Assembly (NCBI RefSeq): GCF_900496995.4
Contig: NW_024470382.1
Span: 744,001-808,000, forward strand
From: Aquila chrysaetos chrysaetos
Lineage: Eukaryota > Chordata > Aves > Accipitriformes > Accipitridae
DNA: 64,000 nt
Direction of reading: 5' to 3'
Below the pieces are notes generated by a model. It was given only the letters and a program-made list of their open reading frames with translations, was not told where the DNA came from and made no database searches. A program made the position numbers and the translations under genes. Below, piece by piece: positions 1-57,784 of this stretch (its first letter is position 1; every line of letters begins with the position of its first letter).

Positions 1-1830
1 AAGCCTTGAACAAGGATTTTGACCCGAAAACGGGGCTTTGGGCCCTACAAATAGGTGTTTGGACACTCAAAATGAGGCCTTGGACATGAAGGAAATGGGG
101 CTTTGAGCCCTAAGTAAGTGAGGCGTTTGTACCCTAACATGAGGGTTGGGACCCTAGCATGGAGTCTTTCAACCCTGGAATCAAGGATTTGGACCCTAGA
201 AAGGAGGCTTTGGGACCTAAACCTGAGGCTTTGAGCCCTAAAAGGGGGTTCTGGACCCTCCAAATGAGGGTTTGGACACTCCAGATGTGGCTTGCACCCT
301 AAAAATGCCTGTCTGGACCCTAAAAAGAGGCTTCGGACCCTGAACATGAGACTATGCAAACTAAAACTAAGCCTTTGCACCCTGAAAATGAGGGGTGTGG
401 AGCCTAAAATGAGCATTTGGTAGGCAAAATGAAGACTTGGACCCTAGAAATGCGGCTTTGGACTCTACAAATGAGGCTTTGGACCTTCAAAATCAGACTT
501 TGGGGCATAAAAATGATGCTGTGGGCCCTAGAAATGCATCTTTGAACCTTAAAAGCGTGAACCCTGGAACTTTGGACCCTCCAAATAAGGGTTTGGACAC
601 TGCAGATGTGGCTAGGACCCTAAAAATGCCTGTCTGCATACTAAAAAAGCAGCTTTGGACCCTGAAAAAAAGGCATTTTTGGAGCCTGATGTGAGGCTTT
701 GGAAGGCTAAGACTTTAGAAAGTAAACAATGAGGCTTTGGACCCTAGAAATGCAGCTTTGGACTCTATAAAGAGGCTTTGGACCATCAAAATCAGACTTT
801 GGGCTTAAAAATGATGTTCTGGACCCTTTAAAATGAGCCGTTGAACCTTAAAAGCGTGAACCCTGGAACTTTAGGAATGAGGCTTTGGACCCTGACAGGG
901 AGGGTTTGGACCCTAAAACTGAAACTTTGGGCCTGGAAAAAAGGCTGTGGGTACTAAAAGATGGGCTTGGGCCCTAAAACCAAGGACTGGGGCCCGAAAA
1001 CTGGGCTTTGGGGCCTAGAAATGGGTCTTTGGACGCTCAAAATGAGGCCTTGGACATGAAGGAAACGAGGCTTTGAGCCCCAGGTGAGGAGTCTGTAGCC
1101 TAAAATGAGGGTTGGGACCCTAGCATGGAGTCTTTCAACCCCGGAATCAAAGCTTTGGACCCTAGAAATGAGGCTTTGGGACCTAAACCTGAGGCGTTGA
1201 GCCCTAAAAGGGGGTTCTGGACCCTCCAAATGAGGGTTTGGACACTCCAGATGCAGCTTGGACCCTAAAAATGCCTGTCTGGAATCTAAACCTGATGCTT
1301 TGGACCCTGAATATGAGACTGTTGAAAATAAAACTGAGCCTTTACACTCTAAAAATGAGGGGTTGGTTGCCTAAAATGAGGCTTTGGAAAGTAAACACGA
1401 GGCTCTGGACCCTAGAAATGCAGGCTTTGGACTCTACAAATGAGGCTTTGGACCTTCCAAATCAGACTTTGGGGCTTAAAAATGATGCTCTGGACCCTTT
1501 AAAATGAGCCGTTGAACCTTAAAAGCGTAAACCCTCGAACTTAGGAATGACACTTTGGACCCTGAAAAGGAGGGTTTGGACCCTAAAACTGAAACTTTGG
1601 GCCTGGAAAAAAGGCTGTGGGTACTAAACAACAGGCTTGGACCCTAAATACGAGGATTTTAGTCCTCAACTGGGGCACTGGACCCTTACCATGAGGCTTT
1701 AGACGTGAAGGAAATATGCAGTTTTGCAGCCTAGAATGAGGCCTCGATAGCAGACTTTGGGCCTTCCAAATGATGGTCTGCGCCCTTGAAATGAGTCTTT
1801 GAACCTTTACGAAGCCTGTGATGGAATTAC
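1..1830 (+). repeat. 21-bp tandem repeat array, sense orientation
   Basis: Imperfect tandem array with a unit of about 21 bp; the commonest form is TTTGGACCCTAAAAA followed by TGAGGC. Units vary from about 19 to 22 bp and carry many substitutions, so the array is old. A longer higher-order period is visible, because a variant containing ATGCCTGTCTGGA recurs near 315, 625 and 1,270. Since 21 is a multiple of three, four of the six frames are largely free of stops and give short heptad-repeat ORFs such as LDPKNEA and LWTLKMR. I read these as by-products of the period and not as genes. From about 870 the array belongs to the long duplication and matches 46,257 onward; the part before 870 resembles 45,640-46,250 less exactly. 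Confidence 0.93.
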
Positions 1831-2330
1831 TCCTTCATTGTTTATAATGTTGAGCAGATGCATGGATTAGTAATGTTTCATAGTATTAATTCAGCAGGCT
1901 CTCAGTCACTTACTGAGGACCTGTGACGGGTAAGGGGTCTCTCTTCCTTGGGTACGGATCTGAAACCTTGAGAGGTGTCCCTGCTCGAGGGGACAGTCGC
2001 TGGGCGTGCAGTCCAGCTGCACTTCAGGGAGAGCTCGACGTGGGCACAACCTGATGAGCCAAGTGGCTGGCTGCTAGCCAAGAGCCGAGACAGGCTGGAT
2101 GTCTTCATTTCCTCTCCGGTATCTTGTTCTGTACTTTGGTTATCTTGCACTTCTTTTTGGGTGTCGAAACCACCTTTCGAAGTCTTTTCCGAGACACCTT
2201 CGCTCCCTCGCCTGTGAGCCAGGGGCTTTCCAGCTTGCAAGTTCACCCCCAGGACGCCAAGGAGCCTGTCGCTCCTCAGTCACCCCGCACCAAAGCACGG
2301 CTAGGGGTCAAGTGTATCCATCCCACCCGT

Positions 2331-2382
2331 GCCGGTGAAGGACCGTTGTGAACAATTAAAAAAGTCGGCGCTCTTTCGCAGC
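2331..2382 (+). repeat. Short dispersed element, first occurrence
   Basis: About 50 bp around the core GAACAATTAAAAAAGTC, preceded by GTGAAGGACC, recurs with few changes at 5,657-5,710, and both occurrences are repeated in duplication copy 2 (near 47,716 and 51,032). It lies immediately 5' of the CpG island. I do not recognise the family. It could be the edge of an old retroelement or a conserved part of a duplicated promoter. The stretch from 1,830 to 2,330 around it is unclassified, with no convincing exon. Confidence 0.55.
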
Positions 2383-2419
2383 TTCCCGTCCCCGCAGAGC
2401 TTTCCCTCCCCTCAGGGCT

Positions 2420-2760
2420 TTCCCGCCTCTCTGCCGCCTCCCGAGAGCGGCGCTGGGATTGGGCAGTGCAGGCCCAGCTCTGATTGGCGGCGCTTCCCGC
2501 GGCAGCAGCCGATTGGCTGTCGCTCTGCCGGCCGGGGAGGGCTCTGGGCTGCAGGGGGGAGCGCTCCGGGGCGGGGCGGGGGGGGGGCGGTTGTCATGGC
2601 AGCGGCGCGGCCCAGCCCCTGCCGCGGCCTGCGCTGTCAGGCGCTGGTGGCGGGGGGCTCGGGGCCTGCCCTCCCGAGCAGCACCGCGAGTTAAGGCTGG
2701 GCAGTGTCAGGGAAATTCCCTTCCCGAGCGATCCTGTCGGCCAGTCTTCACAGTAGGAGA
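2420..2760 (+). promoter_or_regulatory. Orphan CpG-island promoter with CCAAT and GC boxes
   Basis: A dense CpG island of about 340 bp. It has three inverted CCAAT boxes (ATTGG at 2,458, 2,483 and 2,512), the spacing expected of NF-Y sites, followed by a GC-box run (GGGGCGGGGCGGGG, about 2,568-2,582) of the Sp1 type. An ATG in fair Kozak context follows at 2,596 and opens a frame of only 32 codons beginning MAAARPSP. No downstream exon could be attached. The CCDC81-like gene ends almost 4 kb away and points towards the island, so the island is not its promoter. It may drive an unrecognised or non-coding transcript, or be a promoter captured by the duplication. The promoter architecture is clear; its target is not. 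Confidence 0.72.
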
Positions 2761-2982
2761 GCGTATGAACTTTGTGGCTGTAGCTGTTAGTTCAGCGTAG
2801 GGGCTGCAGGGTAATGAGGTACTGGAATGTGGCCGCAGGCTCTGGGGTTGCTTATGCCGAAGGAAAACAAACAAAAGGCAGGATGCGAGCTGCAATCCAG
2901 CTTGCTTAGAAGAAGGAGCACTACCTGCGCCTAGCGTCAGGCTTCAGACCGCGTCAGGATGGCTTTGTCCCCTCAGAGCAAG

Positions 2983-4610
2983 TAGTGAGGCTTTAAAAAC
3001 GAGGCTTGGGGCCCTAAAAATTAGGGTTTGGACCCCAGAAAGGAGGCTTTCAGTCCTCAAAAATAATGAACGTTTGGGCCCTACAATGAGGCTTTCAGCC
3101 CTTCCAATTAGGCTTTAGGCCTGAAAGAGTTAGACCCCCAAATGAATATCTGGACCATAAAAATGAGTATTTGGACACCCAACGTGCGGCTTTGGCCCTT
3201 AGAAATGCGTCCTTGTACGCCCCGAATAACCCTTTGGACCCTGAACCTGAGGATTTGCTTTTTAAGTGGGGGCTTACACCCTACAAATGAGCATTTGGGC
3301 TGTCAAAATGAGGCTTGAGACCCTTAAAATGAGGAGAGGGATCCTACAAATGAGGCTTTGGGCCCTACAAATGAGACATGCAGGGAGAAATTGTGGCTTT
3401 CAAGATGAGGCTTTGGACCCTAAAAACTAAGATTTGGACCCTAGAAGTGAGGCTTAGAACCCTAAAAATGAGGCATTGGACCCCGAAAATGAGACTTTGG
3501 AACCTCAAAATTTGGGACTAGAAACAAAAGACAAGAATTTGGACAATAAAATGAGATTTTGGACTCTAAAAGATAAAGATCGGGGTCTTATAAATGAGGC
3601 TGTGGAGCCTCCAAATAAAGCTTTGGACCCTAAACCCAGTCCTTCGTTCCCTAACAAGAGGGTTTAGACCCTACAAATCAGTATTTGGCCACTCAAAATG
3701 AGGCTTTGGACTGGGAAATCAGGTTGTGTCCTATAATAAGGATTTGAACCCCATAAATGCAGCTATGGATCCTAACAATGAGGGGTTGGGCCATATAAAT
3801 GGGAACGTTGACTCTCATCATCCCAGTAAACTAAAACTGAGGCTTTGGGCTCTAAAAATGAGGCTTGGTACCCTAAAATGAGGGCGAAGGCCCTACCAAT
3901 GAAGCTTTGGATTCTAAAAATGAAGGTTTTGATCCGAAACTGACTCTTTGAGCCTTAAAAATGAGGCTGTGGACAAAGAATGCCCCAAGCCTGTCAGTGT
4001 TTAAGAGGCATTTGGACAATGCCCTCATTAACATGCTTTAACTTTGTCAGCCCTGAATTGGTCAGGCAGTTGGACTAGATGATTGTCGTAGGTCCCTTGC
4101 AACTGAAATAGTCTATGCTGTTCTATTCTAAAAAAACGAGGCTATGGGAGCTAAACTGAGGGTTTGGACCCTAAAAATGAAGCTTTGGACATTCAAAATC
4201 AGACTTGGGGCATTAAAAGTGATGCTTTGGGCCCTTAAAAAGTCTTTGCACCTTTGAAGCGGGGTTCGGAACTTACAGATGCGTGTTTGTATCATAAAAA
4301 TGAGGTTTTGGACCTTAAAAATGACTTTCTGGACCCCCAAAAGGAGGCTTTGGGCCCTAAAAATGAGGCTTGCATCTTGAAAATGAGTGTTTGGATCTTA
4401 AAAATGAGTCTTTAGAGACTAAAACGAGGCTTTGGACCCTGAAAGTAATGATTTAGGCTGTAAATTGAGGCTTTGGGGCCCTTAAGTAGGTTTTTGTGCA
4501 TTTAAGATGCAGCTTTGGGCTCTCAAAAGGAGGCTTTGTACCCTAAACATGAGGGTTGGGCCTCAGAAATGATGATTTGGGCCTTAAAAAGGAGGGCTTT
4601 TTTACCCAAA
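2983..4610 (+). repeat. 21-bp tandem repeat array, sense orientation
   Basis: Second block of the same 21-bp unit, sharing the TTTGGACCCTAAAAA core but more diverged than the first block. It is split by a CR1 3' end at 3,966-4,130. Its right half and the unique sequence after it (to about 4,885) also occur in a diverged third copy at 57,870-58,640. No coding sequence is supported here; the ORFs are period artefacts. Confidence 0.9.
3966..4130 (+). mobile_element. CR1 LINE 3' end, truncated
   Basis: The text around AGGCATTTGGACAATGCCCT, then GTTGGACTAGATGATTGTCG, then GTAGGTCCCTTGCAACTGAA is the characteristic 3' end of an avian CR1 element in sense orientation. It finishes in a short degenerate tail with TTCTATTCTA. 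Only the last ~165 bp are present, the usual 5' truncation. It sits inside the 21-bp array and is shared by both duplication copies, so it predates the duplication. Confidence 0.85.
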
Positions 4611-6340
4611 GTGTGCACAGACCTTGTAGCCCAAGGGGCAAGACTTGGATGGTATTCATACCTCAACCAGGCATGTCCTTGAGCAGCCTGATGGGCCCTG
4701 CTGTGAGCATGGGGTTGGGCTAGAAACTGCTTGATGTCCTGATTTGACGAGCTCAGCTGGGCAGGGTGACACTACAGACTCCCCGGTGAGACACATCTCA
4801 CCCCAACACTGAGCTCCTCGTTCTGGGTAGATCTCTCAAGTTTGGCACTTCAACAAGATATTCAAATTCCCAGCCTGGCACCCTCAGATCTCTTGCAAAC
4901 GGTGCAGAAAGATCTGCCCCTGCAAAGTGAAATTCAGCTTTACAGACACTCATCACACTGTTCCCCTCAGGAACAACCTTCACTCAAGGTCAGGCTTGAA
5001 TTTTTAGGGACCCTTGCCCCAGATGCTGGAGGGGGTCCTAAGCAGAAGCTTCCTGTAAGGACGGTTTGGTTCCTGGGTTGAATAGGATGGATTTGTGCAA
5101 AGAGGAAAATGCCAGGAAACAGGAGGCTACGTGATGAGTGCCATAGTGCTGGGACTGGAGCTGGACCTTCTGTCAGTGTGCTTGGCCCATGGGATGGCCA
5201 CATGGGGCACCTACTTGGAGGATTTCCTAAGTAGAGATATAAATAGGATATAAATTGGGTAAATTGGGAGTCAAGAGCCCTGAGTGGAAGTAGAAAGTCC
5301 AGCCCAGCAGAGCTGGGCTCAGCCTTGCTCTCTTTCCTTCCCTGGTCCCTTATGGCCCTGGGTGAAAGCTCGAGTGGCCTCCACTGCCCCTGCCATAGGT
5401 GCCCTCCATGCCTCCCGAGCTGCACTCGCATCTTCTCCTTTCCCCTCCAGGGACTTTCAGTTCTTCACAACATTGCTCCAAGTGTCTGGTTGCCCTCCCT
5501 TGCCCCAGAAAGCAGGTTCCTTTCCATAGCGGCCATGGAAAAGGTCCCTTGGATGGAAGAGGTCCTGAAAGAAGGTCCCTCAGATGGCCCCGCTTCCAGG
5601 ACCATGCTGGGCTGGTCTCAGAGCCATGGCCAACTGTAAAACCCTTCTGCCCCATTCCAGTGAAGGACCATTGCGAACAATTAAAAAAGTCAACACTCTT
5701 TTGCAACCTCTCCTTTGTGTTCTTACTCATCTCTCTCCCAAGCTCCTTGTGTCCCAAAGACAGATGGGTTTCTTGAAAAGAAGAGAGACCTCTAAAACAG
5801 TACTGCACGTTTTGGGAGCTCTTTGCCCACAGGAATGGCTTCAGGTCAGGACACTGAGGACAGGGCAGCTGTTTCTCTCCCTCTGTTTGCCCCTTCTCTG
5901 CAGCCTCTCCAGCAGCAGTGGTTTGCTCCCAAGCTGTGCCAGATGCACCCAAAAAGCCTTTCTTTTCCCACCGGGGATGTGAAGGAGCAATGAGCTGGGA
6001 AGAAACAGTCCCCTCTCCGGCCCAGAGCAGCCTTGTGGTTAGTTAGACCTTCCAAACATGGCCAAATAACATGCCCTTGTGTGTTTCCTGAGAAAAGAGA
6101 ACGCCACTGGAAAATGAGTACCGCGCCCCAGGTGATGGAAAAGCCCAAGGTGGCAATTTAGCCATGACATCAGTTACATCTAAGGGCTCTTTGAAGAGTC
6201 CCCACTGTCCCTCTAAATGTGCATTTCTAGAAGGAAGCGGCACCCCAGAACACAGATTCAAATCACGTACCTGTTTTGCCACTTCAGGTGGTGCTCCCTC
6301 TGCTCCGGGCACTCCAAGCTCTGGTCATTCTGGCTTGGGT
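4611..6340. other. Intergenic sequence without recognised gene
   Basis: Unique sequence between the repeat array and the 3' end of the CCDC81-like gene. The first ~275 bp recur, diverged, at 58,345-58,640. A second occurrence of the short dispersed element lies at 5,657-5,710. Open frames up to 200 codons exist on both strands (for example 5,350-5,952 minus), but none shows splice-flanked boundaries or a family I recognise. The tail end probably includes 3' UTR of the CCDC81-like gene. Confidence 0.5.
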
Positions 6341-6457
6341 CACTCCATCCTGGGTAGCCGTGATCTTCTCTTCTGGTAGTAGCATCGCATTGACGCCTCG
6401 TCCACTGGTGGCATCAGAAAAGAGGTGTCGTAGAGGGGCACCTCGAGTGGGCTGGTC

Positions 6458-9400
6458 TCAGGGCTTGATGGCGAAAGTATGGCTATTCGGGGTGGTGGAG
6501 GCAGGGTCTGGACTCCGCAACTGCTGGAAGGTCTTTCCTTTGGCCATCTTCAGCTCTCCACCTTCAAGGGCATCTTTCTTCTCTCCTTTTCCCTTTCCCC
6601 TGCACCTCGGAGGTTTTGCTGCCTGTGCTCGGCCCAGCTCTGATGCTCGGCCTTTGGGTGCGGGTTTGCCCTTGGGTTGGCCGGTCTTACGCTGCTTTTT
6701 GGCAAAGGAGGCTCCTGGGATCTCTGGCAGCCGCCTGGAAGGACACAACAGGAGGAGTCTGCCTGAGGGCACGGTGGGTTTGGGGCTGCATCCTGCCAGC
6801 AAGCCGTACACCTGTTTGCGCAGCCTCTGGCAGCTCAGCTCAGGAGAGGAAACCCCTGAGCTGAGACCCTCGGCTGACACACGGCTGTCCCCGTGCACAG
6901 CTCAGGAGGCCATGCTGGGGGTCTCCTGAATGGCTGGAGAGGAACCAGCCCTGTGAAATGGGGAGCTCCCGGCAGCCTCATCCCATGCCTCCAGGCGCTG
7001 CCTTCACCACTGTCGGGCAGCGATGAACGGCAAGTGTTTGGGTCTGCACAATGGGCTCTTGCCGGGTCAGAAAATGACCCTGTGCAGCACCAGCCCTGAA
7101 CCTCCAGACTCACCTGACCCGCAAGTTGTTCCTCATCTCCATCACCGCCTTATCCCAGAGCTGCTCACATTCGTTATTAGTCAAGCTTGAATTAGCAGGC
7201 AAGGGCGGTTCAGGAAATCTCGCTGGAAGCGGGAGGGAGAGATCTCGTCAGAAGAGCACTGTTGTGACGCTGCCGGCCCCACTGATACACAGGGGTGCTC
7301 AGGCCTCTTCCCAAAACACCCGAGTGGGCTGTTCTGCTTCCCTCACAGCTGCCAGAGGCCTCATGCCCTCCTCAACACTAGCTCTTTCCCAGCCCCCTCA
7401 TTTCCATGGTGTAATACGGTTTTGCAACCACACCATTGGCGCCAGATTTGGAAAAGAGGAGCAGGTGCTGTTGAGGTGACAGTCTCTTTTGGAGATCTAA
7501 TTCCTCGGGGGTGGGTGGGGAGGGGGGGACAGGGTCTTGGATCGCATCCTCCCACCACACCCTTGGGTGCATCCCACCCCAGGGCTCTGTTTTGGTGAAG
7601 CCAACGAGTTGTCAGGATAAAAAGCTGTGCCAAGCTGGTGTGAAGCTTTGGTGCAAGTCAGAGCCTTTTGACTGTCATCACCGGGGACTTTCTCATCAGA
7701 TCACAGAAGGTGGTTGCCCGCGCTATGGAAACAAGCCAGGAGCTGCTTTACCTTCCGTGTCTTGCCCGAGAGGTGGCAAACCCTCTTTTTTCTTCCCCTT
7801 GTCCTCAGCAGGGACATTTCTCAAGGCCTTCAGAGGGTCCCTGGGTGTTGGTTTGGTCACAAGCTCCAGTTCAAACCTGGAGACAAAGAGATGACACCAG
7901 CATGACCCACGGCACCAGCAGCCCTTGCCGCTTGCCGCGATCACCTGCTCACTGGCAGATTTTGGCACTGTTGTAGAGGCCGTTGTTTTCTCAAGTCAAC
8001 TCTCCCCCGTCCCTGAGGGCTGTCCTAGGAAATGGGGTCACCTGCCAAATAAGTCCAGGTCACCTAAACTCCTCTACCTGTGCCATCAAGTCTGCCTACA
8101 GGCTGGGGATATGCATGATTGTCACTGCCTGTGTCTCCCTGGGAGGACACCCATGGTCATAAGGAGCAAATGCTACCAAACTGCAGCTGAGCAGCCGCGT
8201 CAGCTGGAAACATACTCACTCAGGAAAGATGATAACACGGCCAGAGAGAGTCAAGGAAGCAATGGATGCCACCCGGGACACCACCATTTTGAGCAGCTGG
8301 GGGACCTGCAACAGATGAGCATGAAGGTGGCGGGAAATCCTCAATGTGGCCGAGGCACTCAATTTGGGAGGAGTCCAAGGCAGCGAGAGATGTTGAGACC
8401 GTAGCTCTCACTGGTCACGACTGGCTGGCCACGTCCTGGCGGGCCACATGCAAGCAGTGCTGGGGCACTGCAGTGGGACTGCCCGAGCAGTGGGGAGACC
8501 AAAAGGCTCACCTTGAATGCAGCCTTTTCTAGGTTCCTCTTCCCAGACATCCTTTCCAGGAAGTCAAAGTAGAATCTCATTTGCACACTCCTGCCTTCGA
8601 TGAGGAGCACCCCCACGTCCCTCAGGACAAGGGCAACGTTCTCCCCCTTCCCCAGGCACTGAGACAGGAGGGACGTGACGCCTAGGATGCAGCCCTCCAC
8701 TTTTCGCCGGGACACAGAGGCATCCATGGCCACCTTGGCATATTTCATAGGCTCCAGCACCTTACTGCCTGGAAAAACACACAAGAGGGACAGAGGCGCT
8801 CACCCAGTGGCCGTTCCACAGCCATTTCCCAAGGGCTGCTTATTGCAGTCATCGCCCAGAAAGGCCCCATTTTTGGACCTGCTCCGCAGAGGGGGCAGTT
8901 TGCTTTCAGAAAAGGGATGCGATATCCCCTTTCACCCCGACCGTGCAGGCAGCCAGGGTTTAATCCGCCATCTTACCAGGAAGGTTGTCTTTATCGTCCA
9001 TGAGATTGTGCACAGTTGCAAGGTTCCTGGCCAGGCGAAACACCGGCCTCTGGATAATCACAATCTCATTCCCAACCTGTGTCCGTGTGGGGACCACATC
9101 GAAGGAGCCAAGGGTGGGAATTCGGACCCTCTGTGAGTGGAAGAGAAGGGAAGAGCTGAAGGGTGAGGACTGGCTGGAGGGAAGAGCGGGGGGTGGCCCT
9201 GTTTAGGCCGGACCCTGCCAGCTCCCGCTGTTCAGAGGCACGAGCCAGGGCAGTGGGGAGAGCTTTGAGGAAGAGATGCTGAGTCCTCTCCCTCTCCTTT
9301 CCCCTCTAAAAGAACAGTGCTGGAGTCAGGGCAGAAGCAGCCCGAGGGCATCCAGGGGTCTCCAGTGACCAGGATCAGCCCTGTGGTACAATACCACCTA

Positions 9401-9981
9401 CCACAGGTGATACCACCCTTGCACGAGCCCTGTTTGTCCCTCAGTGTGGGCTTTTGGGGGGGGTGTCCTGCCTGCTGAGGAGGGGAAGAGTAACTGCAGG
9501 CCATGCCCCAGGGCCATGGGGACTCCCCACTTCTCTGGGTGGATGAGGAGGATGCGGGTGTCGCCCCACCTTGTGCAGCAGGAGCTGTTCTTGAACGTAG
9601 CCGGCCACTGCATCCCAGACAGAGGTTTGCTCTGGAAAGCAAAGGAAGATCAGGTCCTGCTCTGCATTTGCTGGCCCTCAACCCTCCAGCATCCCCTGAG
9701 CTGCGGCACATTGGCAGATGTGAAGTGTCATTGCTGTCCCCAGCCCCAGATGGAGACACCCCTGAGGTGGCTGCTGTGCTGAGTCTCGCCTACACAATGC
9801 TACAGCTGTTGGTCCTGACAATGCTCCTGCGGTGGCTGTGGCTGCCTGTACCTTTGGCGGTGGCGCTGGGCATCATGAAGGCGTGCTCCATCCCATCCCA
9901 GAAGTCCATCTTGGTCCGCCTCACGCTGGTGGGTTGCTCCTTAGGGGCGACAGCCATGTAGGAGCTCATCCCTGCGTTCAT
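6458..9981 (-). CDS. CCDC81-like protein with HU-CCDC81 domains, copy 1, last exon frameshifted relative to copy 2
   Basis: Eight minus-strand coding exons with matching phases: 9,981-9,852; 9,631-9,570; 9,130-8,977; 8,768-8,512; 8,305-8,220; 7,876-7,752; 7,222-7,114; and a terminal exon from about 6,860 to 6,458. They sum to 441 codons. Recognisable CCDC81 features are SVWDAVAGYVQEQLLLHK, then RIPTLGSFDVVPT and IIQRPVFRLARNLA (first HU-like domain, about residues 45-115), then VEGCILGVTSLLSQ and LRDVGVLLIEGRSVQMRFY (second HU-like domain, about 125-200), then VVSRVASIA. Human CCDC81 is centrosome- or cilium-associated; its longer coiled-coil tail is replaced here by a lysine-rich tail. The tail differs from copy 2 because of one extra C near 6,523, which shifts the frame and ends the protein about 39 codons earlier. 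Start choice (9,981) and the last acceptor (6,860) are the least certain points. Confidence 0.8.
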
Positions 9982-10084
9982 CCTATGGATGCTCCTCCAG
10001 GGTGCAGGACCCACTGTGGCCCACTTTTGTACTCCTGTGCAGGCGTGTCAGAGACCCAGTGTGACACCACGGTGACATAGCCAC

Positions 10085-10200
10085 TGCTGACTCTGCTGCC
10101 CACTGTGACATACAAGTGACCTGCTGCCCACTGTGACACGGTCTCAAGTGACCTGCTGCCTGCTCTGACATCCATCACCTTCTGCCTGCCGTGACATTGC
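10085..10200 (+). repeat. Short ~30-bp tandem repeat
   Basis: Three to four imperfect units built on GACCTGCTGCCCACTGTGAC, just upstream (5') of the CCDC81-like gene. The block is identical in the second duplication copy at about 55,459-55,574. No regulatory role is evident. Confidence 0.7.
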
Positions 10201-10269
10201 CACCACTATAACTGTTCGCTCAGCTCCTGCTCAGGTTTTGGCTGGACACGCAACTCACACTGAGGCCTG

Positions 10270-11276
10270 ACACGTGCTGGGAGCAGGGCCATTAGGTCAA
10301 AGCGTGGGTAAGACATTCGCAAGACACGATAGACAAGACAGGGTGATGGCTGTTCTGCAGCCCTTAAGACCTGCAGCTCACTGTCTCCGGTGGCCTTCGC
10401 CGCCTGTATTTTTGCCTAGTAACTGTCTGGCAGTTTCTTCAATATCCACTAACTTCCAGACATGGTATAGCTGGGAGGTAGAAATACGTCAGCTTGCCCA
10501 AAAAGCTATTGAAGTGGAGCCAACAGCAGCCGGGCTGTTGGGGCTGACGTGCTTCCCAGTGCGATACAGGGGACACCCACACCATGACGGAGGAGGAAGG
10601 ATGAGCACTCTCACCATTGCCTCAGGAACTACTTTGCTCATAAGCGCATGAGTTGGAAGTGAGGAGTCAGAGAACGTGGGAGTGAGACGTGTCGTGAATT
10701 ACTGAGTTAGTGACTCCAGGTGTCAGACTAGTCTGTGCTAGTGGGATTGAGCCCTTCTTTGATGTGTTTGGTTTTTTTCCAATGAGCTTCATAAAGTAAA
10801 GTTTCATTTACAGAGTACATTGGCCTGCAAATTTAAGAGATCCAAATGGACCGTAACATTGCATTGGTATCAGAAGCGGGATCTCTCTCAGACGGATTTT
10901 GTTGGAGGCACAAGGTGCTTTCGCCATGCCAACTGAGGCATTCATTTAAGGGTGAGTGTAGAGATACTGCGTGTCTGTAGATGCATGTCATGATGCAGGA
11001 AGAAAATCTGGACAGTGAGCAGCCACAACTGGGAGATAAATTTGAGAAGGGGGAGTGGCAAAACCCCCCAAGTGGGATTTATCCTGGGTTGAGAGCCACT
11101 GCATGAATACTGGTAGTATTTGGCATGAGTTTGACAGATGGCAGCTTTCTTGTCAGTTAAGGAAGGGAAAAGGAAAAGATGCGGTGTGTTGGCTACTGGA
11201 GAGGTGTCTTAGAGCAGCAATGGATACGATTGATGAGTTGAAGGGGGAGGATGTATGACCGAAAGAAGAAAACAAG
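10270..11276 (+). mobile_element. ERVL-like LTR, primer-binding site and leader fragment
   Basis: A retroviral primer-binding site reads TGGTATCAGAAGCGGGAT at 10,865-10,882, close to the leucine-tRNA type site of ERVL elements. It is preceded by sequence ending in CA at 10,863, with a possible poly(A) signal region (CATAAAGTAAAG near 10,790), so the LTR occupies roughly 10,270-10,863; its 5' border is not fixed. About 390 bp of leader or gag-region sequence follows, until it is interrupted at 11,277 by another LTR. No intact retroviral gene is present. In copy 2 the internal sequence resumes beyond that LTR. Confidence 0.65.
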
Positions 11277-11596
11277 TGTCGTGGTTTAACCCCAGCCAGC
11301 AACTGAACACCACACAGCTGCTCACTCACTGCCCCCCCACCCAGTGGGATGGGGGAGAAAATCGGGAAAAGAAGTAAAACTCGTGGGTTGAGAGAAGAAC
11401 GGTTTCATAGAACAGAAAAGAAGAAACTAATAATGATAATGATAACACTAATAAAATGACAACAGTAATAATAAAAGGATTGGAATGTACAGATGATGGG
11501 CAGTGCAATTGCTCACCACCCGCCAATCGACACCCAGTTAGTCCCTGAGCGGCGATTCCCCCCCGCCCCCACTCCCCCCAGTTTATATACTAGATG
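11277..11596 (-). mobile_element. ERVK-like LTR, truncated at the duplication breakpoint
   Basis: Starts TGTCGTGGTTTAACCCCAGC and follows, base for base with few changes, the complete LTR at 56,651-57,234, but stops at 11,596 after ATACTAGATG, where unrelated sequence begins. Orientation is set to minus because the related copy at 21,018 is flanked by a reverse-complement primer-binding site. A class II (ERVK-type) assignment rests on that lysine-type site. Confidence 0.85.
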
Positions 11597-20779: not shown

Positions 20780-21593
20780 TTTCAAAGCAAAAACCTTAAT
20801 CCACCTCCCACGGATGATAAGCAGCAGCAAGTGAGGTGATATGTAACACAACTCTAAGCACGAGCGCCACAACTCTAAGAACCAATAAATCAACACTGTG
20901 ACCAGCGACTGTTAGACTAATATAATGAATCCTTGTAACAAATTCATTTTAACACGCTCTGGTCAGGTCTGTCGTTATCTCAACCCTTCGTGCCCCATGT
21001 TGGGCACCAAAAAGGACTGTTGTGGTTTAACCCCAGCCAGCAACTAAGCACCATGCAGCCGCTCGCTCACTTCCCCCCCACCCTGTGGGATGGGGGAGAG
21101 AATCAGGAAAAAAAAAAAGTAAAATTCGTGGGTTGAAATAAGAACAGTTTAATAGGACAGAAAGGAAGAAAATAATTATGATAATAATAATAAAATGATT
21201 GGAATATACAAAGGAAGTGATGCGCAATGTAGTTGCTCACCACTCGCTGACAGATGCCCAGTTAGTTCCCAAGCAGCAATCTGCGCCCCCCCCCCCCCCC
21301 CCAACTCCCCCCAGTTTCTATACTGGGCATGATGTCACATGGTGTGGAATACCCCTTTGGCCAGTTTGGGTCAGCTGTCCTGGCTGTGTCCCCTCCCAAC
21401 TTCTTGTGCCCCTCCAGCCTGCTTGCTGGCTGGGCATGAGAAGCTGCAAAATCCTTGACTTTATCTAAACATTCCTTCGCAACAACTGAAAACATCAGTG
21501 TGTTATCAACATTCTTGTCATCCTGAACCCAAACCATAACACTATACCAGCTACTGGAAAGAAAATTAACTCTATCCCAGCCAAAACCAGGAC
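20780..21593 (-). mobile_element. ERVK-like leader, primer-binding site and LTR
   Basis: Read on the minus strand, a complete LTR (21,593 to 21,018; the plus strand starts TGTTGTGGTTTAACC and ends AAACCAGGAC) is followed after 8 bp by TGGTGCCCAACATGGGGC at 21,009-20,992. This is a lysine-tRNA type primer-binding site typical of class II endogenous retroviruses. About 210 bp of leader follow before the CR1 fragment cuts it off. No retroviral coding region remains. This copy sets the orientation of the other LTRs of the same family. Confidence 0.8.
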
Positions 21594-43702: not shown

Positions 43703-43725
43703 AGGTCTCCTTGGGAAAATGGAAA

Positions 43726-45065: not shown

Positions 45066-45254
45066 GAGGAGACTGACAGCCCTCCCCACCTGTGCTGACC
45101 GATGGGAGAAGGATGCGAGCTACGCTGGGGACCAGACCCAGCTTCGACATGGCACACGCGGGGCCTGCCCCGAGGCCCAGCAGCCCCCAGCCCAGGCCCA
45201 GGGCCCCTACCATCCCTTCCACCCCTGCCCCCGCTCTCCCTCCCGCCTTACGTA

Positions 45255-47200: not shown

Positions 47201-47804
47201 CTGTGATGGAATTACTCCTTCATTGTTTATAATGTTGAGCAGATGCATGGATTAGTAATGCTTCATAGTATTAATTCAGCAGGCTCTCAGTCACTTACTG
47301 AGGACCTGTGACGGGTAAGGGGTCTCTCTTCCTTGGGTACGGATCTGAAACCTTGAGAGGTGTCCCTGCTCGAGGGGACAGTCGCTGGGCGTGCAGTCCA
47401 GCTGCACTTCAGGGAGAGCTCGACGTGGGCACAACCTGATGAGCCAAGTGGCTGGCTGCTAGCCAAGAGCCGAGACAGGCTGGATGTCTTCATTTCCTCT
47501 CCGGTATCTTGTTCTGTACTTTGGTTATCTTGCACTTCTTTTTGGGTGTCGAAACCACCTTTCGAAGTCTTTTCCGAGACACCTTCGCTCCCTCGCCTGT
47601 GAGCCAGGGGCTTTCCAGCTTGCAAGTTCACCCCCAGGACGCCAAGGAGCCTGTCGCTCCTCAGTCACCCCGCACCAAAGCACGGCTAGGGGTCAAGTGT
47701 ATCCATCCCACCCGTGCCGGTGAAGGACCGTTGTGAACAATTAAAAAAGTCGGCGCTCTTTCGCAGCTTCCCGTCCCCGCAGAGCTTTCCCTCCCCTCAG
47801 GGCT

Positions 47805-48145
47805 TTCCCGCCTCTCTGCCGCCTCCCGAGAGCGGCGCTGGGATTGGGCAGTGCAGGCCCAGCTCTGATTGGCGGCGCTTCCCGCGGCAGCAGCCGATTG
47901 GCTGTCGCTCTGCCGGCCGGGGAGGGCTCTGGGCTGCAGGGGGGAGCGCTCCGGGGCGGGGCGGGGGGGGGCGGTTGTCATGGCAGCGGCGCGGCCCAGC
48001 CCCTGCCGCGGCCTGCGCTGTCAGGCGCTGGTGGCGGGGGGCTCGGGGCCTGCCCTCCCGAGCAGCACCGCGAGTTAAGGCTGGGCAGTGTCAGGGAAAT
48101 TCCCTTCCCGAGCGAGCCTGTCGGCCAGTCTTCACAGTAGGAGAG
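47805..48145 (+). promoter_or_regulatory. Orphan CpG-island promoter, copy 2
   Basis: Same island as 2,420-2,760: three ATTGG boxes (about 47,843, 47,868 and 47,897), a GC-box run and the MAAARPSP start, with only a shorter G-run. It is unchanged enough to suggest that both copies could be active. Confidence 0.7.
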
Positions 48146-48367
48146 CGTATGAACTTTGTGGCTGTAGCTGTTAGTTCAGCGTAGGGGCTGCAGGGTAATG
48201 AGGTACTGGAATGTGGCCGCAGGCTCTGGGGTTGCTTATGCCGAAGGAAAACAAACAAAAGGCAGGATGCGAGCTGCAATCCAGCTTGCTTAGAAGAAGG
48301 AACACTACCTGCGCCTAGCGTCAGGCTTCAGACCGCGTCAGGATGGCTTTGTCCCCTCAGAGCAAGT

Positions 48368-49995
48368 AGTGAGGCTTTAAAAACGAGGCTTGGGGCCCTA
48401 AAAATTAGGGTTTGGACCCCAGAAAGGAGGCTTTCAGTCCTCAAAAATAATGAACGTTTGGGCCCCACAATGAGGCTTTCAGCCCTTCCAATTAGGCTTT
48501 AGGCCTGAAAGAGTTAGACCCCCAAATGAATATCTGGACCATAAAAATGAGTATTTGGACACCCAACGTGCGGCTTTGGCCCTTAGAAATGCGTCCTTGT
48601 ACGCCCCGAATAACCCTTTGGACCCTGAACCTGAGGATTTGCTTTTTAAGTGGGGGCTTACACCCTACAAACGAGCATTTGGGCTGTCAAAATGAGGCTT
48701 GAGACCCTTAAAATGAGGAGAGGGATCCTACAAATGAGGCTTTGGGCCCTACAAATGAGACATGCAGGGAGAAATTGTGGCTTTCAAGATGAGGCTTTGG
48801 ACCCTAAAAACTAAGATTTGGACCCTAGAAGTGAGGCTTAGAACCCTAAAAATGAGGCATTGGACCCCGAAAATGAGACTTTGGAACCTCAAAATTTGGG
48901 ACTAGAAACAAAAGACAAGAATTTGGACAATAAAATGAGATTTTGGACTCTAAAAGATAAAGATCGGGGTCTTATAAATGAGGCTGTGGAGCCTCCAAAT
49001 AAAGCTTTGGACCCTAAACCCAGTCCTTCGTTCCCTAACAAGAGGGTTTAGACCCTACAAATCAGTATTTGGCCACTCAAAATGAGGCTTTGGACTGGGA
49101 AATCAGGTTGTGTCCTATAATAAGGATTTGAACCCCATAAATGCAGCTATGGATCCTAACAATGAGGGGTTGGGCCATATAAATGGGAACGTTGACTCTC
49201 ATCATCCCAGTAAACTAAAACTGAGGCTTTGGGCTCTAAAAATGAGGCTTGGTACCCTAAAATGAGGGCGAAGGCCCTACCAATGAAGCTTTGGATTCTA
49301 AAAATGAAGGTTTTGATCCGAAACTGACTCTTTGAGCCTTAAAAATGAGGCTGTGGACAAAGAATGCCCCAAGCCTGTCAGTGTTTAAGAGGCATTTGGA
49401 CAATGCCCTCATTAACATGCTTTAACTTTGTCAGCCCTGAATTGGTCAGGCAGTTGGACTAGATGATTGTCGTAGGTCCCTTGCAACTGAAATAGTCTAT
49501 GCTGTTCTATTCTAAAAAAACGAGGCTATGGGAGCTAAACTGAGGGTTTGGACCCTAAAAATGAAGCTTTGGACATTCAAAATCAGACTTGGGGCATTAA
49601 AAGTGATGCTTTGGGCCCTTAAAAAGTCTTTGCACCTTTGAAGCGGGGTTCGGAACTTACAGATGCGTGTTTGTATCATAAAAATGAGGTTTTGGACCTT
49701 AAAAATTACTTTCTGGACCCCCAAAAGGAGGCTTTGGGCCCTAAAAATGAGGCTTGCATCTTGAAAATGAGTGTTTGGATCTTAAAAATGAGTCTTTAGA
49801 GACTAAAACGAGGCTTTGGACCCTGAAAGTAATGATTTAGGCTGTAAATTGAGGCTTTGGGGCCCTTAAGTAGGTTTTTGTGCCTTTAAGATGCAGCTTT
49901 GGGCTCTCAAAAGGAGGCTTTGTACCCTAAACATGAGGGTTGGGCCTCAGAAATGATGATTTGGGCCTTAAAAAGGAGGGCTTTTTTACCCAAAG
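48368..49995 (+). repeat. 21-bp tandem repeat array (copy 2 counterpart)
   Basis: Counterpart of 2,983-4,610, again split by the CR1 3' end at 49,350-49,514. Near-identical, so the repeat has hardly turned over since duplication. Confidence 0.9.
49350..49514 (+). mobile_element. CR1 LINE 3' end (copy 2 counterpart)
   Basis: Same 5'-truncated CR1 tail as at 3,966-4,130, in the same place in the array; duplicated with it. Confidence 0.85.
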
Positions 49996-51700
49996 TGTGC
50001 ACAGACCTTGTAGCCCAAGGGGCAAGACTTGGATGGTATTCATACCTCAACCAGGCATGTCCTTGAGCAGCCTGATGGGCCCTGCTGTGAGCATGGGGTT
50101 GGGCTAGAAACTGCTTGATGTCCTGATTTGACGAGCTCAGCTGGGCAGGGTGACACTACAGACTCCCCGGTGAGACACATCTCACCCCAACACTGAGCTC
50201 CTCGTTCTGGGTAGATCTCTCAAGTTTGGCACTTCAACAAGATATTCAAATTCCCAGCCTGGCACCCTCAGATCTCTTGCAAACGGTGCAGAAAGATCTG
50301 CCCCTGCAAAGTGAAATTCAGCTTTACAGACACTCATCACACTGTTCCCCTCAGGAGCAACCTTCACTCAAGGTCAGGCTTGAATTTTTAGGGACCCTTG
50401 CCCCAGATGCTGGAGGGGGTCCTAAGCAGAAGCTTCCTGTAAGGACGGTTTGGTTCCTGGGTTGAATAGGATGGATTTGTGCAAAGAGGAAAATGCCAGG
50501 AAACAGGAGGCTACGTGATGAGTGCCATAGTGCTGGGACTGGAGCTGGACCTTCTGTCAGTGTGCTTGGCCCATGGGATGGCCACATGGGGCACCTACTT
50601 GGAGGATTTCCTAAGTAGAGATATAAATAGGATATAAATTGGGAGTCAAGAGCCCTGAGTGGAAGTAGAAAGTCCAGCCCAGCAGAGCTGGGCTCAGCCT
50701 TGCTCTCTTTCCTTCCCTGGTCCCTTATGGCCCTGGGTGAAAGCTCGAGTGGCCTCCACTGCCCCTGCCATAGGTGCCCTCCATGCCTCCCGAGCTGCAC
50801 TCGCATCTTCTCCTTTCCCCTCCAGGGACTTTCAGTTCTTCACAACATTGCTCCAAGTGTCTGGTTGCCCTCCCTTGCCCCAGAAAGCAGGTTCCTTTCC
50901 ATAGCGGCCATGGAAAAGGTCCCTTGGATGGAAGAGGTCCTGAAAGAAGGTCCCTCAGATGGCCCCGCTTCCAGGACCATGCTGGGCTGGTCTCAGAGCC
51001 ATGGCCAACTGTAAAACCCTTCTGCCCCATTCCAGTGAAGGACCATTGCGAACAATTAAAAAAGTCAACACTCTTTTGCAACCTCTCCTTTGTGTTCTTA
51101 CTCATCTCTCTCCCAAGCTCCTTGTGTCCCAAAGACAGATGGGTTTCTTGAAAAGAAGAGAGACCTCTAAAACAGTACTGCACGTTTTGGGAGCTCTTTG
51201 CCCACAGGAATGGCTTCAGGTCAGGACACTGAGGACAGGGCAGCTGTTTCTCTCCCTCTGTTTGCCCCTTCTCTGCAGCCTCTCCAGCAGCAGTGGTTTG
51301 CTCCCAAGCTGTGCCAGATGCACCCAAAAAGCCTTTCTTTTCCCACCGGGGATGTGAAGGAGCAATGAGCTGGGAAGAAACAGTCCCCTCTCCGGCCCAG
51401 AGCAGCCTTGTGGTTAGTTAGACCTTCCAAACATGGCCAAATAACATGCCCTTGTGTGTTTCCTGAGAAAAGAGAATGCCACTGGAAAATGAGTACCGCG
51501 CCCCAGGTGATGGAAAAGCCCAAGGTGGCAATTTAGCCATGACATCAGTTACATCTAAGGGCTCTTTGAAGAGTCCCCACTGTCCCTCTAAATGTGCATT
51601 TCTAGAAGGAAGCGGCACCCCAGAACACAGATTCAAATCACGTACCTGTTTTGCCACTTCAGGTGGTGCTCCCTCTGCTCCGGGCACTCCAAGCTCTGGT
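49996..51700. other. Intergenic sequence (copy 2 counterpart)
   Basis: Counterpart of 4,611-6,340, with no recognised gene. It includes the second dispersed element at about 51,030-51,085 and the short deletion near 50,637. Confidence 0.5.
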
Positions 51701-51714
51701 CATTCTGGCTTGGG

Positions 51715-54700
51715 TCACTCCATCCTGGGTAGCCGTGATCTTCTCTTCTGGTAGTAGCATCGCATTGACGCCTCGTCCACTGGTGGCATCAGAAAAGAGG
51801 TGTCGTAGAGGGGCACCTCGAGTGGGCTGGTCTCAGGGCTTGATGGCGAAAGTATGGCTATTCGGGGTGGTGGAGGCAGGGTCTGGACTCCGCAACTGTG
51901 GAAGGTCTTTCCTTTGGCCATCTTCAGCTCTCCACCTTCAAGGGCATCTTTCTTCTCTCCTTTTCCCTTTCCCCTGCACCTCGGAGGTTTTGCTGCCTGT
52001 GCTCGGCCCAGCTCTGATGCTCGGCCTTTGGGTGCGGGTTTGCCCTTGGGTTGGCCGGTCTTACGCTGCTTTTTGGCAAAGGAGGCTCCTGGGATCTCTG
52101 GCAGCCGCCTGGAAGGACACAACAGGAGGAGTCTGCCTGAGGACACGGTGGGTTTGGGGCTGCATCCTGCCAGCAAGCCGTACGCCTGTTTGCGCAGCCT
52201 CTGGCAGCTCAGCTCAGGAGAGGAAACCCCTGAGCTGAGACCCTCGGCTGACACACGGCTGTCCCCGTGCACAGCTCAGGAGGCCATGCTGGGGGTCTCC
52301 TGAATGGCTGGAGAGGAACCAGCCCTGTGAAATGGGGAGCTCCCGGCAGCCTCATCCCACGCCTCCAGGCGCTGCCTTCACCACTGTCGGGCAGCGATGA
52401 ACGGCAAGTGTTTGGGTCTGCACAATGGGCTCTTGCCGGGTCAGAAAATGACCCTGTGCAGCACCAGCCCTGAACCTCCAGACTCACCTGACCCGCAAGT
52501 TGTTCCTCATCTCCATCACCGCCTTATCCCAGAGCTGCTCACATTCGTTATTAGTCAAGCTTGAATTAGCAGGCAAGGGCGGTTCAGGAAATCTCGCTGG
52601 AAGCGGGAGGGAGAGATCTCGTCAGAAGAGCACTGCTGTGACGCTGCCGGCCCCACTGATACACAGGGGTGCTCAGGCCTCTTCCCAAAACACCTGAGTG
52701 GGCTGTTCTGCTTCCCTCACAGCTGCCAGAGGCCTCATGCCCTCCTCAACACTAGCTCTTTCCCAGCCCCCTCATTTCCATGGTGTAATACGGTTTTGCA
52801 ACCACACCATTGGCGCCAGATTTGGAAAAGAGGAGCAGGTGCTGTTGAGGTGACAGTCTCTTTTGGAGATCTAATTCCTCGGGGGTGGGTGGGGAGGGGG
52901 GGACAGGGTCTTGGATCGCATCCTCCCACCACACCCTTGGGTGCATCCCACCCCAGGGCTCTGTTTTGGTGAAGCCAACGAGTTGTCAGGATAAAAAGCT
53001 GTGCCAAGCTGGTGTGAAGCTTTGGTGCAAGTCAGAGCCTTTTGACTGTCATCACCGGGGACTTTCTCATCAGATCACAGAAGGTGGTTGCCCGCGCTAT
53101 GGAAACAAGCCAGGAGCTGCTTTACCTTCCGTGTCTTGCCCGAGAGGTGGCAAACCCTCTTTTTTCTTCCCCTTGTCCTCAGCAGGGACATTTCTCAAGG
53201 CCTTCAGAGGGTCCCTGGGTGTTGGTTTGGTCACAAGCTCCAGTTCAAACCTGGAGACAAAGAGATGACACCAGCATGACCCACGGCACCAGCAGCCCTT
53301 GCCGCTTGCCGCGATCACCTGCTCACTGGCAGATTTTGGCACTGTTGTAGAGGCCGTTGTTTTCTCAAGTCAACTCTCCCCCGTCCCTGAGGGCTGTCCT
53401 AGGAAATGGGGTCACCTGCCAAATAAGTCCAGGTCACCTAAACTCCTCTACCTGTGCCATCAAGTCTGCCTACAGGCTGGGGATATGCATGATTGTCACT
53501 GCCTGTGTCTCCCTGGGAGGACACCCATGGTCATAAGGAGCAAATGCTACCAAACTGCAGCTGAGCAGCCGCGTCAGCTGGAAACATACTCACTCAGGAA
53601 AGATGATAACACGGCCAGAGAGAGTCAAGGAAGCAATGGATGCCACCCGGGACACCACCATTTTGAGCAGCTGGGGGACCTGCAACAGATGAGCATGAAG
53701 GTGGCGGGAAATCCTCAATGTGGCCGAGGCACTCAATTTGGGAGGAGTCCAAGGCAGCGAGAGATGTTGAGACCGTAGCTCTCACTGGTCACGACTGGCT
53801 GGCCACGTCCTGGCGGGCCACATGCAAGCAGTGCTGGGGCACTGCAGTGGGACTGCCCGAGCAGTGGGGAGACCAAAAGGCTCACCTTGAATGCAGCCTT
53901 TTCTAGGTTCCTCTTCCCAGACATCCTTTCCAGGAAGTCAAAGTAGAATCTCATTTGCACACTCCTGCCTTCGATGAGGAGCACCCCCACGTCCCTCAGG
54001 ACAAGGGCAACGTTCTCCCCCTTCCCCAGGCACTGAGACAGGAGGGACGTGACGCCTAGGATGCAGCCCTCCACTTTTCGCCGGGACACAGAGGCATCCA
54101 TGGCCACCTTGGCATATTTCATAGGCTCCAGCACCTTACTGCCTGGAAAAACACACAAGAGGGACAGAGGCGCTCACCCAGTGGCCGTTCCACAGCCATT
54201 TCCCAAGGGCTGCTTATTGCAGTCATCGCCCAGAAAGGCCCCATTTTTGGACCTGCTCCGCAGAGGGGGCAGTTTGCTTTCAGAAAAGGGATGCGATATC
54301 CCCTTTCACCCCGACCGTGCAGGCAGCCAGGGTTTAATCCGCCATCTTACCAGGAAGGTTGTCTTTATCGTCCATGAGATTGTGCACAGTTGCAAGGTTC
54401 CTGGCCAGGCGAAACACCGGCCTCTGGATAATCACAATCTCATTCCCAACCTGTGTCCGTGTGGGGACCACATCGAAGGAGCCAAGGGTGGGAATTCGGA
54501 CCCTCTGTGAGTGGAAGAGAAGGGAAGAGCTGAAGGGTGAGGACTGGCTGGAGGGAAGAGCGGGGGGTGGCCCTGTTTAGGCCAGACCCTGCCAGCTCCC
54601 GCTGTTCAGAGGCACGAGCCAGGGCAGTGGGGAGAGCTTTGAGGAAGAGATGCTGAGTCCTCTCCCTCTGCTTTCCCCTCTAAAAGAACAGTGCTGGAGT

Positions 54701-55355
54701 CAGGGCAGAAGCAGCCCGAGGGCATCCAGGGGTCTCCAGTGACCAGGATCAGCCCTGTGGTACAATACCACCTACCACAGGTGATACCACCCTTGCACGA
54801 GCCCTGTTTGTCCCTCAGTGTGGGCTTTTGGGGGGGGTGTCCTGCCTTCTGAGGAGGGGAAGAGTAACTGCAGGCCATGCCCCAGGGCCATGGGGACTCC
54901 CCACTTCTCTGGGTGGATGAGGAGGATGCGGGTGTCGCCCCACCTTGTGCAGCAGGAGCTGTTCTTGAACGTAGCCGGCCACTGCATCCCAGACAGAGGT
55001 TTGCTCTGGAAAGCAAAGGAAGATCAGGTCCTGCTCTGCATTTGCTGGCCCTCAACCCTCCAGCATCCCCTGAGCTGCGGCACATTGGCAGATGTGAAGT
55101 GTCATTGCTGTCCCCAGCCCCAGATGGAGACACCCCTGAGGTGGCTGCTGTGCTGAGTCTCGCCTACACAATGCTACAGCTGTTGGTCCTGACAATGCTC
55201 CTGCGGTGGCTGTGGCTGCCTGTACCTTTGGCGGTGGCGCTGGGCATCATGAAGGCGTGCTCCATCCCATCCCAGAAGTCCATCTTGGTCCGCCTCACGC
55301 TGGTGGGTTGCTCCTTAGGGGCGACAGCCATGTAGGAGCTCATCCCTGCGTTCAT
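51715..55355 (-). CDS. CCDC81-like protein with HU-CCDC81 domains, copy 2, longer tail
   Basis: Same eight-exon structure as copy 1, shifted by 45,374: 55,355-55,226; 55,005-54,944; 54,504-54,351; 54,142-53,886; 53,679-53,594; 53,250-53,126; 52,596-52,488; terminal exon from about 52,234 to 51,715. The exons sum to 480 codons and an exact frame. The two HU-like domains and the lysine-rich stretch are as in copy 1. After the single-base difference near 51,899 the frame continues through TLPPPPRIAILSPSSPE, EVPLYDTSFLMPP and CYYQKRRSRLP before TGA. This tail has ordinary codon usage and sequence character, so I regard copy 2 as the better-preserved version. No CpG promoter is obvious at its 5' end; an ERVL-like LTR lies about 290 bp upstream. 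Confidence 0.82.
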
Positions 55356-55643
55356 CCTATGGATGCTCCTCCAGGGTGCAGGACCCACTGTGGCCCACTT
55401 TTGTACTCCTGTGCAGGCGTGTCAGAGACCCAGTGTGACACCACGGTGACATAGCCACTGCTGACTCTGCTGCCCACTGTGACATACAAGTGACCTGCTG
55501 CCCACTGTGACACGGTCTCAAGTGACCTGCTGCCTGCTCTGACATCCATCACCTTCTGCCTGCCGTGACATTGCCACCACTATAACTGTTCGCTCAGCTC
55601 CTGCTCAGGTTTTGGCTGGACACGCAACTCACACTGAGGCCTG

Positions 55644-57784
55644 ACACGTGCTGGGAGCAGGGCCATTAGGTCAAAGCATGGGTAAGACATTCGCAAGACA
55701 CGATAGACAAGACAGGGTGACGGCTGTTCTGCAGCCCTTAAGACCTGCAGCTCACTGTCTCCGGTGGCCTTCGCCACCTGTATTTTTGCCTAGTAACTGT
55801 CTGGCAGTTTCTTCAATATCCACTAACTTCCAGACATGGTATAGCTGGGAGGTAGAAATACGTCAGCTTGCCCAAAAAGCTATTGAAGTGGAGCCAACAG
55901 CAGCCGGGCTGTTGGGGCTGACGTGCTTCCCAGTGCGATACAGGGGACACCCACACCATGACGGAGGAGGAAGGATGAGCACTCTCACCATTGCCTCAGG
56001 AACTACTTTGCTCATAAGCGCATGAGTTGGAAGTGAGGAGTCAGAGAACGTGGGAGTGAGACGTGTCGTGAATTACTGAGTTAGTGACTCCAGGTGTCAG
56101 ACTAGTCTGTGCTAGTGGGATTGAGCCCTTCTTTGATGTGTTTGGTTTTTTTCCAATGAGCTTCATAAAGTAAAGTTTCATTTACAGAGTACATTGGCCT
56201 GCAAATTTAAGAGATCCAAATGGACCGTAACATTGCATTGGTATCAGAAGCGGGATCTCTCTCAGACGGATTTTGTTGGAGGCACAAGGTGCTTTCGCCA
56301 TGCCAACTGAGGCATTCATTTAAGGGTGAGTGTAGAGATACTGCGTGTCTGTAGATGCATGTCATGATGCAGGAAGAAAATCTGGACAGTGAGCAGCCAC
56401 AACTGGGAGATAAATTTGAGAAGGGGGAGTGGCAAAACCCCCCAAGTGGGATTTATCCTGGGTTGAGAGCCACTGCATGAATACTGGTAGTATTTGGCAT
56501 GAGTTTGACAGATGGCAGCTTTCTTGTCAGTTAAGGAAGGGAAAAGGAAAAGATGCGGTGTGTTGGCTACTGGAGAGGTGTCTTAGAGCAGCAATGGATA
56601 CGATTGATGAGTTGAAGGGGGAGGATGTATGACCGAAAGAAGAAAACAAGTGTCGTGGTTTAACCCCAGCCAGCAACTGAACACCACACAGCTGCTCACT
56701 CACTGCCCCCCCACCCAGTGGGATGGGGGAGAAAATCGGGAAAAGAAGTAAAACTCGTGGGTTGAGATAAGAACGGTTTCATAAAACAGAAAAGAAGAAA
56801 CTAATAATGATAATGATAACACTAATAAAATGACAATAGCAATAATAAAAGGATTGGAATGTACAGATGATGGGCAGTGCAATTGCTCACCACCCACCAA
56901 TTGACACGCAGTTAGTCCCTGAGCGGCGATTCCCCCCCGCCCCCACTCCCCCCAGTTTATATACTAGATGTGATGTCCCATGGTATGGAATACCCCGTTG
57001 GCCAGTTTGGGTCAGCTGCCCTGGCTGTGTCCTGTGCCAACTTGTTGTGCCCCTCCAGCTTTCTCGCTGGCTGGGCTTGAGAAGCTGAAAAATCCTTGAC
57101 TTTAGACTAAACACTACTTAGCAACAACTGAAAACATCAGTGTTACCAGCATTCTTCGCATACTGAACTCAAAACGTAGCACTGTACCAGCTACTAGGAA
57201 GACAATTAACTCTATCCCAGCTGAAACCAGGACAACAAGGAAAAAGAAAACCAAAGGAATACTTGGGAAGTAAAGTGCAGAGAATTAAAAACGCAACTGA
57301 AATTGCTTGAGTCAAAACTTTAGCCCCAGGTAACTGCTGAGGCTGAAGGGTGCGGGAGGAGGTTGCTGGGAGCAACTGCAGTAGAGCCAGTTAAAGTTTA
57401 TTGTGCCTTGTGTGAAGATGGTATCTGGAAACGGGTTGGATTCAGTGGAACTACTTGTGGCCGCTGCTCCCACTGCTACAGACCCCAGTCCCGAGTTAGG
57501 GATTGCTACTTTACCACGTTCGTCATTCCACAGGAGCCCAAATGTGGATGGTAGATAAGGACAGTTACGCAAGACAGCCTGCACTTAGGAAGCAATGAGT
57601 TTCTGTTGTAGGCCTTAATGGGCACGTCACTACCCACGCGCTGGTCAGGGCTAAATTATTTCTGTCTAATGGATGGACAGTCCTCCCAACTGTACTCCAG
57701 GTCCCTGCAATATATATTAAGTGTGGAGGTACTGAAGGGTCAGGCATGACCCCTGCTCATGCTACATTGGCTAAAGAGCTAGAA
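55644..57784 (+). mobile_element. ERVL-like element fragment with nested solo LTR
   Basis: LTR to about 56,237, primer-binding site TGGTATCAGAAGCGGGAT at 56,239-56,256, then leader or gag-region sequence to 56,650. It is interrupted by a foreign LTR (56,651-57,234) and resumes at 57,235 for about 550 bp with a cysteine-bearing open stretch (CALCEDGIWKRVGFSGTTCG). It ends where 21-bp repeat sequence begins (about 57,868). All frames are broken; no functional gene. Confidence 0.65.
56651..57234 (-). mobile_element. Complete ERVK-like solo LTR with target-site duplication
   Basis: About 584 bp, plus strand TGTCGTGG...CCAGGACA, flanked by ACAAG on both sides (56,646-56,650 and 57,235-57,239; six bases if counted as AACAAG). 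A clean solo LTR left by recombination between two LTRs. The equivalent in copy 1 is cut off at 11,596. Confidence 0.9.

Follow-up and report, generated by a model that had tools for sequence, protein, structure and literature searches.

A probable recent segmental duplication of about 10.7 kb carrying a CCDC81-like gene in the golden eagle, weighed against joined haplotypes

Introduction

Two long stretches that match almost base for base within one assembled sequence may be true duplicates or two haplotypes of a single locus, and identity alone cannot decide between these readings. The window analysed here, a 64,000-bp stretch of golden eagle (Aquila chrysaetos) DNA, offers a clean case, in which allelism of the flanks can tell a true recent duplication from joined haplotypes. 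The initial annotation of the window had offered three options for its pair of near-identical copies, namely a very recent duplication, ongoing gene conversion or an assembly joining two haplotypes. Of these, the recent duplication proved the best supported, with gene conversion a possibility and joined haplotypes disfavoured.

Extent and divergence of the duplicated segment

Self-BLAST of the whole window returned the two copies as a single plus/plus match of 10,891 columns at 99.33% identity, and global alignment resolved their differences into 55 substitutions (36 of them transitions) and 10 indels. The exact self-alignment for which the initial annotation had called thus bears out its near-identical direct duplication of about 10.7 kb.

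708..11596, plus strand: copy 1 (self-BLAST, global alignment), its best-matching part starting at about 873
46096..56970, plus strand: copy 2 (self-BLAST, global alignment), its best-matching part starting at about 46259

The copies lie 45.4 kb apart, with some 34.5 kb of other sequence separating copy 1 from copy 2, and their similarity is far above chance. Segmental duplications are defined as exceeding 1 kb in length and 90% in identity, and the pair, with its 10,891 columns at 99.33%, lies within this definition. Both copies include a CpG-rich stretch (2101-2400 and 47501-48000) that passes simple criteria, in agreement with the CpG island annotated earlier.

Divergence is unevenly distributed along the match. 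In its first segment (708-872) 18 sites differ (10.9%), followed by 8 sites (1.0%) in segment 873-1659 and by a core (1660-11389) in which 22 of 9,730 sites differ (0.23%); the last 207 bp (11390-11596) then carry 7 differing sites (3.4%), about 15 times the divergence of the core.

Edges of the two copies

On the left, identity is lost within a 21-bp minisatellite in both copies.

13..1600, plus strand: 21-bp minisatellite array with a unit close to AGGCTTTGGACCCTAAAAATG, containing the left edge of copy 1 (tandem-repeat evidence)
45281..46985, plus strand: 21-bp minisatellite array containing the left edge of copy 2 (tandem-repeat evidence, self-BLAST)

Divergence does drop at 870/46257, where the start of the duplication had been placed, but this point is no junction with unique sequence, and the diverged 21-bp arrays run on leftwards from it. 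The array of copy 1 extends nearly to the start of the window, and the unique left flank of this copy lies beyond the window. BLAST matches inside 1-872 to other arrays of the window reach about 87% identity, and two matches overlapping the end of that segment reach 89-91%. The same 21-bp minisatellite is also present between the copies, in the opposite orientation, at 13052-14643.

The right edge is one exact point, as annotated: the copies are identical up to 11596/56970 and have no similarity beyond it. This point falls inside an LTR-like element, with which the earlier mention of retroviral debris is compatible; identity as an LTR was judged from form alone.

11277..11596, plus strand: first 320 bp only of an LTR-like element, cut at the right edge of copy 1 (sequence comparison)
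56651..57234, plus strand: complete solo LTR-like element lying across the right edge of copy 2 (self-BLAST, form)
21018..21593, plus strand: third, diverged LTR-like copy, aligning across the edge point (self-BLAST)

The element at 56651-57234 starts with TG, ends with CA and is bordered on both sides by the 5-bp repeat ACAAG, and past 11596 in copy 1 other sequence replaces the rest of the element. With the full LTR-like element present in copy 2 and no more than its first 320 bp in copy 1, the natural reading is that copy 2 preserves the original arrangement, with copy 1 derived or later cut. To the right of copy 2, further tandem arrays occupy 59075-60750 and 61266-61461, with units of about 48-49, 97 and 52 bp.

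Both copies have an array at their left edge, and an LTR-like element lies at the right edge, a layout to be expected if repeats on either side had recombined by ordinary unequal crossing-over, array with array and LTR with LTR. Such an exchange, however, should leave a joined LTR that continues across the edge, and the LTR of copy 1 ends at 11596. LTR with LTR recombination at the right edge was rejected on inspection of 11597-12700, which has no LTR match in the window and a single match of any kind there, of 108 bp at 73% identity, to 23629-23734. Unequal crossing-over is thus extremely improbable as the origin of the pair.

The CCDC81-like gene

Gene models were derived by mapping relatives (10 of the 120 found) back to the window by tblastn, and place a CCDC81-like gene on the minus strand of each copy.

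6458..9981, minus strand: CCDC81-like gene of copy 1, 8 exons, 399 codons (tblastn-based model)
9981-9852, 9631-9570, 9130-8977, 8768-8512, 8305-8220, 7876-7752, 7222-7114, 6734-6458, minus strand: exons of the copy 1 gene
51715..55355, minus strand: CCDC81-like gene of copy 2, 8 exons, 438 codons (tblastn-based model)
55355-55226, 55005-54944, 54504-54351, 54142-53886, 53679-53594, 53250-53126, 52596-52488, 52108-51715, minus strand: exons of the copy 2 gene

All 14 internal splice sites of either gene copy follow the AG/GT rule. The protein predicted from copy 2 contains two CCDC81 HU domains (PF14908, 41.7 bits; PF18289, 78 bits; Pfam cut-offs 26.1), confirming the CCDC81-like identity assigned previously. 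A complete gene had been claimed for each copy; this holds for copy 2, which is open over 438 codons, but not for copy 1, where a one-base indel at 6524, outside any homopolymer, shifts the frame in the last exon. The 1,200 coding bases of copy 1 contain no substitution between the copies; because only about 2.7 would be expected there at the core rate, this absence is no evidence of constraint.

A full-length search returned a golden eagle protein (P0121) at 96% identity over 99%. In alignment with copy 2, a single residue of P0121 differs, at the site of the indel; its other differences are a start four residues later and extra stretches of 13 and 5 residues, which look like other splice choices. 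Because P0121 stays in the copy 2 frame right up to the last residue, the frame of copy 1 is the derived one. P0121 is the sole member of its 90% cluster, a weak hint that the golden eagle reference may have one annotated copy. Other birds with more than one CCDC81-like protein include Jacana jacana (P0052, P0072) and Arenaria interpres (P0045, P0078), and within each of these pairs the contigs have an identical stated length. A dedicated study of CCDC81 duplication in birds was not found among the matches listed from open-licence PubMed Central full text.

Neighbouring sequence

The sequence between the copies contains a gene of a second family, with PF21047 detected in 2 of the 10 ORFs scanned, both located there.

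34392..43700, plus strand: MROH-like (maestro HEAT-like repeat) gene between the copies, exons set by eye, boundaries approximate

Among the 7,996 candidates sharing most words, to which scoring was confined, Morphnus guianensis supplies the nearest relative of the exon peptide assembled by hand (77% identity over 89%), ahead of a protein of the golden eagle with 53% over 99%. MROH-like sequence also forms an older direct duplication, in which 24928-29554 matches 36339-43925 in nine collinear pieces of 72-89% identity, which shows that this region had been duplicated before. Together, this older pair and the presence of several CCDC81-like proteins per bird show the CCDC81-like family to be duplication-prone. 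Also between the copies, a minisatellite at 31225-31596 consists of 8.7 copies of a 43-bp unit with 95% matches, across which long minus-strand reading frames stay open.

The CR1 remnant reported inside the copies was not recovered. Pfam searches of 10 copy-1 ORFs gave no transposon domain and no match at or above cut-off, with one weak NUDE_C match below it (E 0.08), and a CR1-type 3' octamer pair is absent across the window at up to 3 mismatches. A plus-strand reading frame at 20600-20830 resembles the CR1 endonuclease region and, if CR1, lies outside the duplication; the ORF at 19746-20831 had no Pfam match, and its batch of 10 ORFs likewise yielded none at or above cut-off. At gathering scores, Rfam matched nothing in the window, and a tRNA-Tyr called by ARAGORN at 28038-28124, lacking Rfam support at those scores, is probably spurious.

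Flanks and the joined-haplotype reading

Heterozygosity in a North American golden eagle is given as 0.248% in the excerpted text of PMC13326411. The divergence of the core, at 0.23%, is close to this published value, and an assembly artefact, in which one false join near 11596 would have set both alleles of a single locus one behind the other, is therefore a serious rival. The repeat arrays to the left of both copies would be places prone to assembly error, and the isolation of P0121 in its cluster points weakly in the same direction. In the excerpted text of PMC9516828, false duplications are recognised by half read depth, a gap separating the copies, discordant pairs of reads or one-copy k-mers; connections that have a read-depth gap and no sequence gap are mentioned as well. 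Against the artefact, no assembly gap separates the two copies (0 N in the 64,000 bases of the window), tens of kilobases of other sequence stand between them, and divergence is uneven, rising at the right end.

The flanks were compared by their 31-mers, of which alleles at 0.248% are expected to share about 93%. On the left (1-869), 81 of 839 31-mers occur in 44600-47050, and on the right (11597-12597) none of 971 occurs in 56971-64000; the duplicated part of the array (873-1659), taken as a comparison value, shares 599 of 757. The reverse comparison, in which 17 of 799 31-mers of 45267-46095 were found in 1-1660, is less telling, as the start of the window truncates the copy 1 array. Neither flank looks allelic, and these low counts weigh against alleles in series, a reading that we regard as rather unlikely. 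The pair is probably genuine, a recent direct segmental duplication of about 10.7 kb whose source would be copy 2, set among CCDC81-like and MROH-like genes and 21-bp minisatellites. Copies that differ about as much as alleles do may belong to a duplication that is still polymorphic.

Proposed route of copying and possible gene conversion

With repeat homology on the left and no visible homology on the right, the edges fit one-sided repair. Copy 2 would have been the source: a broken end in one 21-bp array would have paired with the sister array, break-induced replication would then have copied about 10.7 kb, and the copied end would have been rejoined inside the LTR without homology. The frameshift that gives the copy 1 protein a different end would have arisen later. 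Given a true recent duplication, this break-induced, one-sided route is put forward tentatively, as one possible course of events.

One observation speaks against a single recent copying event, which does not predict the 3.4% divergence of the last 207 bp. All 7 substitutions at the right end fall within 150 bp, a clustering that 1 of 20,000 uniform simulations produced, for an interval width picked after viewing the data. The third LTR copy polarises four of these sites, assigning three changes to copy 2 and one to copy 1, a split for which errors confined to the new copy do not account. Outside the LTR, polarising through internal paralogues is weak, as the array at 4157-4889 assigns one change to each copy and the alignment of the array at 1400-1600 is ambiguous.

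The contrast between right end and core, the cluster of substitutions and the direction of the polarised changes would all suit an older duplication evened out by gene conversion, in which the right end would retain the true age and the segment from the array to about 11390 would have been overwritten by the other copy. All 7 sites, however, lie in the LTR-like element, where conversion of the copy 2 LTR by another LTR copy, or local mutation, is an equally adequate explanation, and the gradient on the left falls in a fast-changing minisatellite. Within the core, clustering of the differences is not unusual, 4,741 of 5,000 simulations being at least as clustered, and the longest identical run was matched or exceeded in 990 of 5,000. 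Taken as a test for a bounded tract of low divergence, the segment values (10.9%, 1.0%, 0.23% and 3.4%) could outline such a tract, for each edge of which there is an alternative explanation. About 10 kb is, moreover, a long tract for gene conversion, and we consider this history of the pair unlikely.

A broader and still less likely proposal is that copying from one CCDC81-like unit of eagles to another repeatedly starts in the 21-bp minisatellite. The pair would then be renewed over about 10 kb, its edges meanwhile ageing, and both copy number and the frameshifted form would segregate in living eagles; we offer this as speculation.

Comparison with known systems

The most likely account of the pair is a recent segmental duplication that is genuine and of a familiar type, an ordinary genome event. 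Should the duplication be real, one of the bird's two versions of this gene is open and the other frameshifted. The best use of the locus is as a test case for separating duplication from joined haplotypes.

The false heterotype duplications described in the excerpted text of PMC9516828 resemble the pair in their heterozygosity-level divergence and in having both copies on one sequence; here, in contrast, there is no N gap, the right flanks are unrelated, the left array is non-allelic and 34.5 kb lie between the copies. Gene conversion in human segmental duplications is the subject of PMC10172114 and PMC3790853. With other avian CCDC81-like genes, such as those for P0121 of Aquila chrysaetos and P0001 of Spheniscus humboldti, the genes described here share the pair of HU domains and the order of exons, but they occur as two near-identical copies in one window, one of them frameshifted. 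Recent intrachromosomal segmental duplications are a known class in vertebrate genomes, and the pair is like them in exceeding 10 kb and 99% identity, in bearing a gene and in lying amid older duplicates and tandem repeats. Nothing differs in principle from this class, the particular feature of the eagle locus being edges that pair a minisatellite with a broken LTR.
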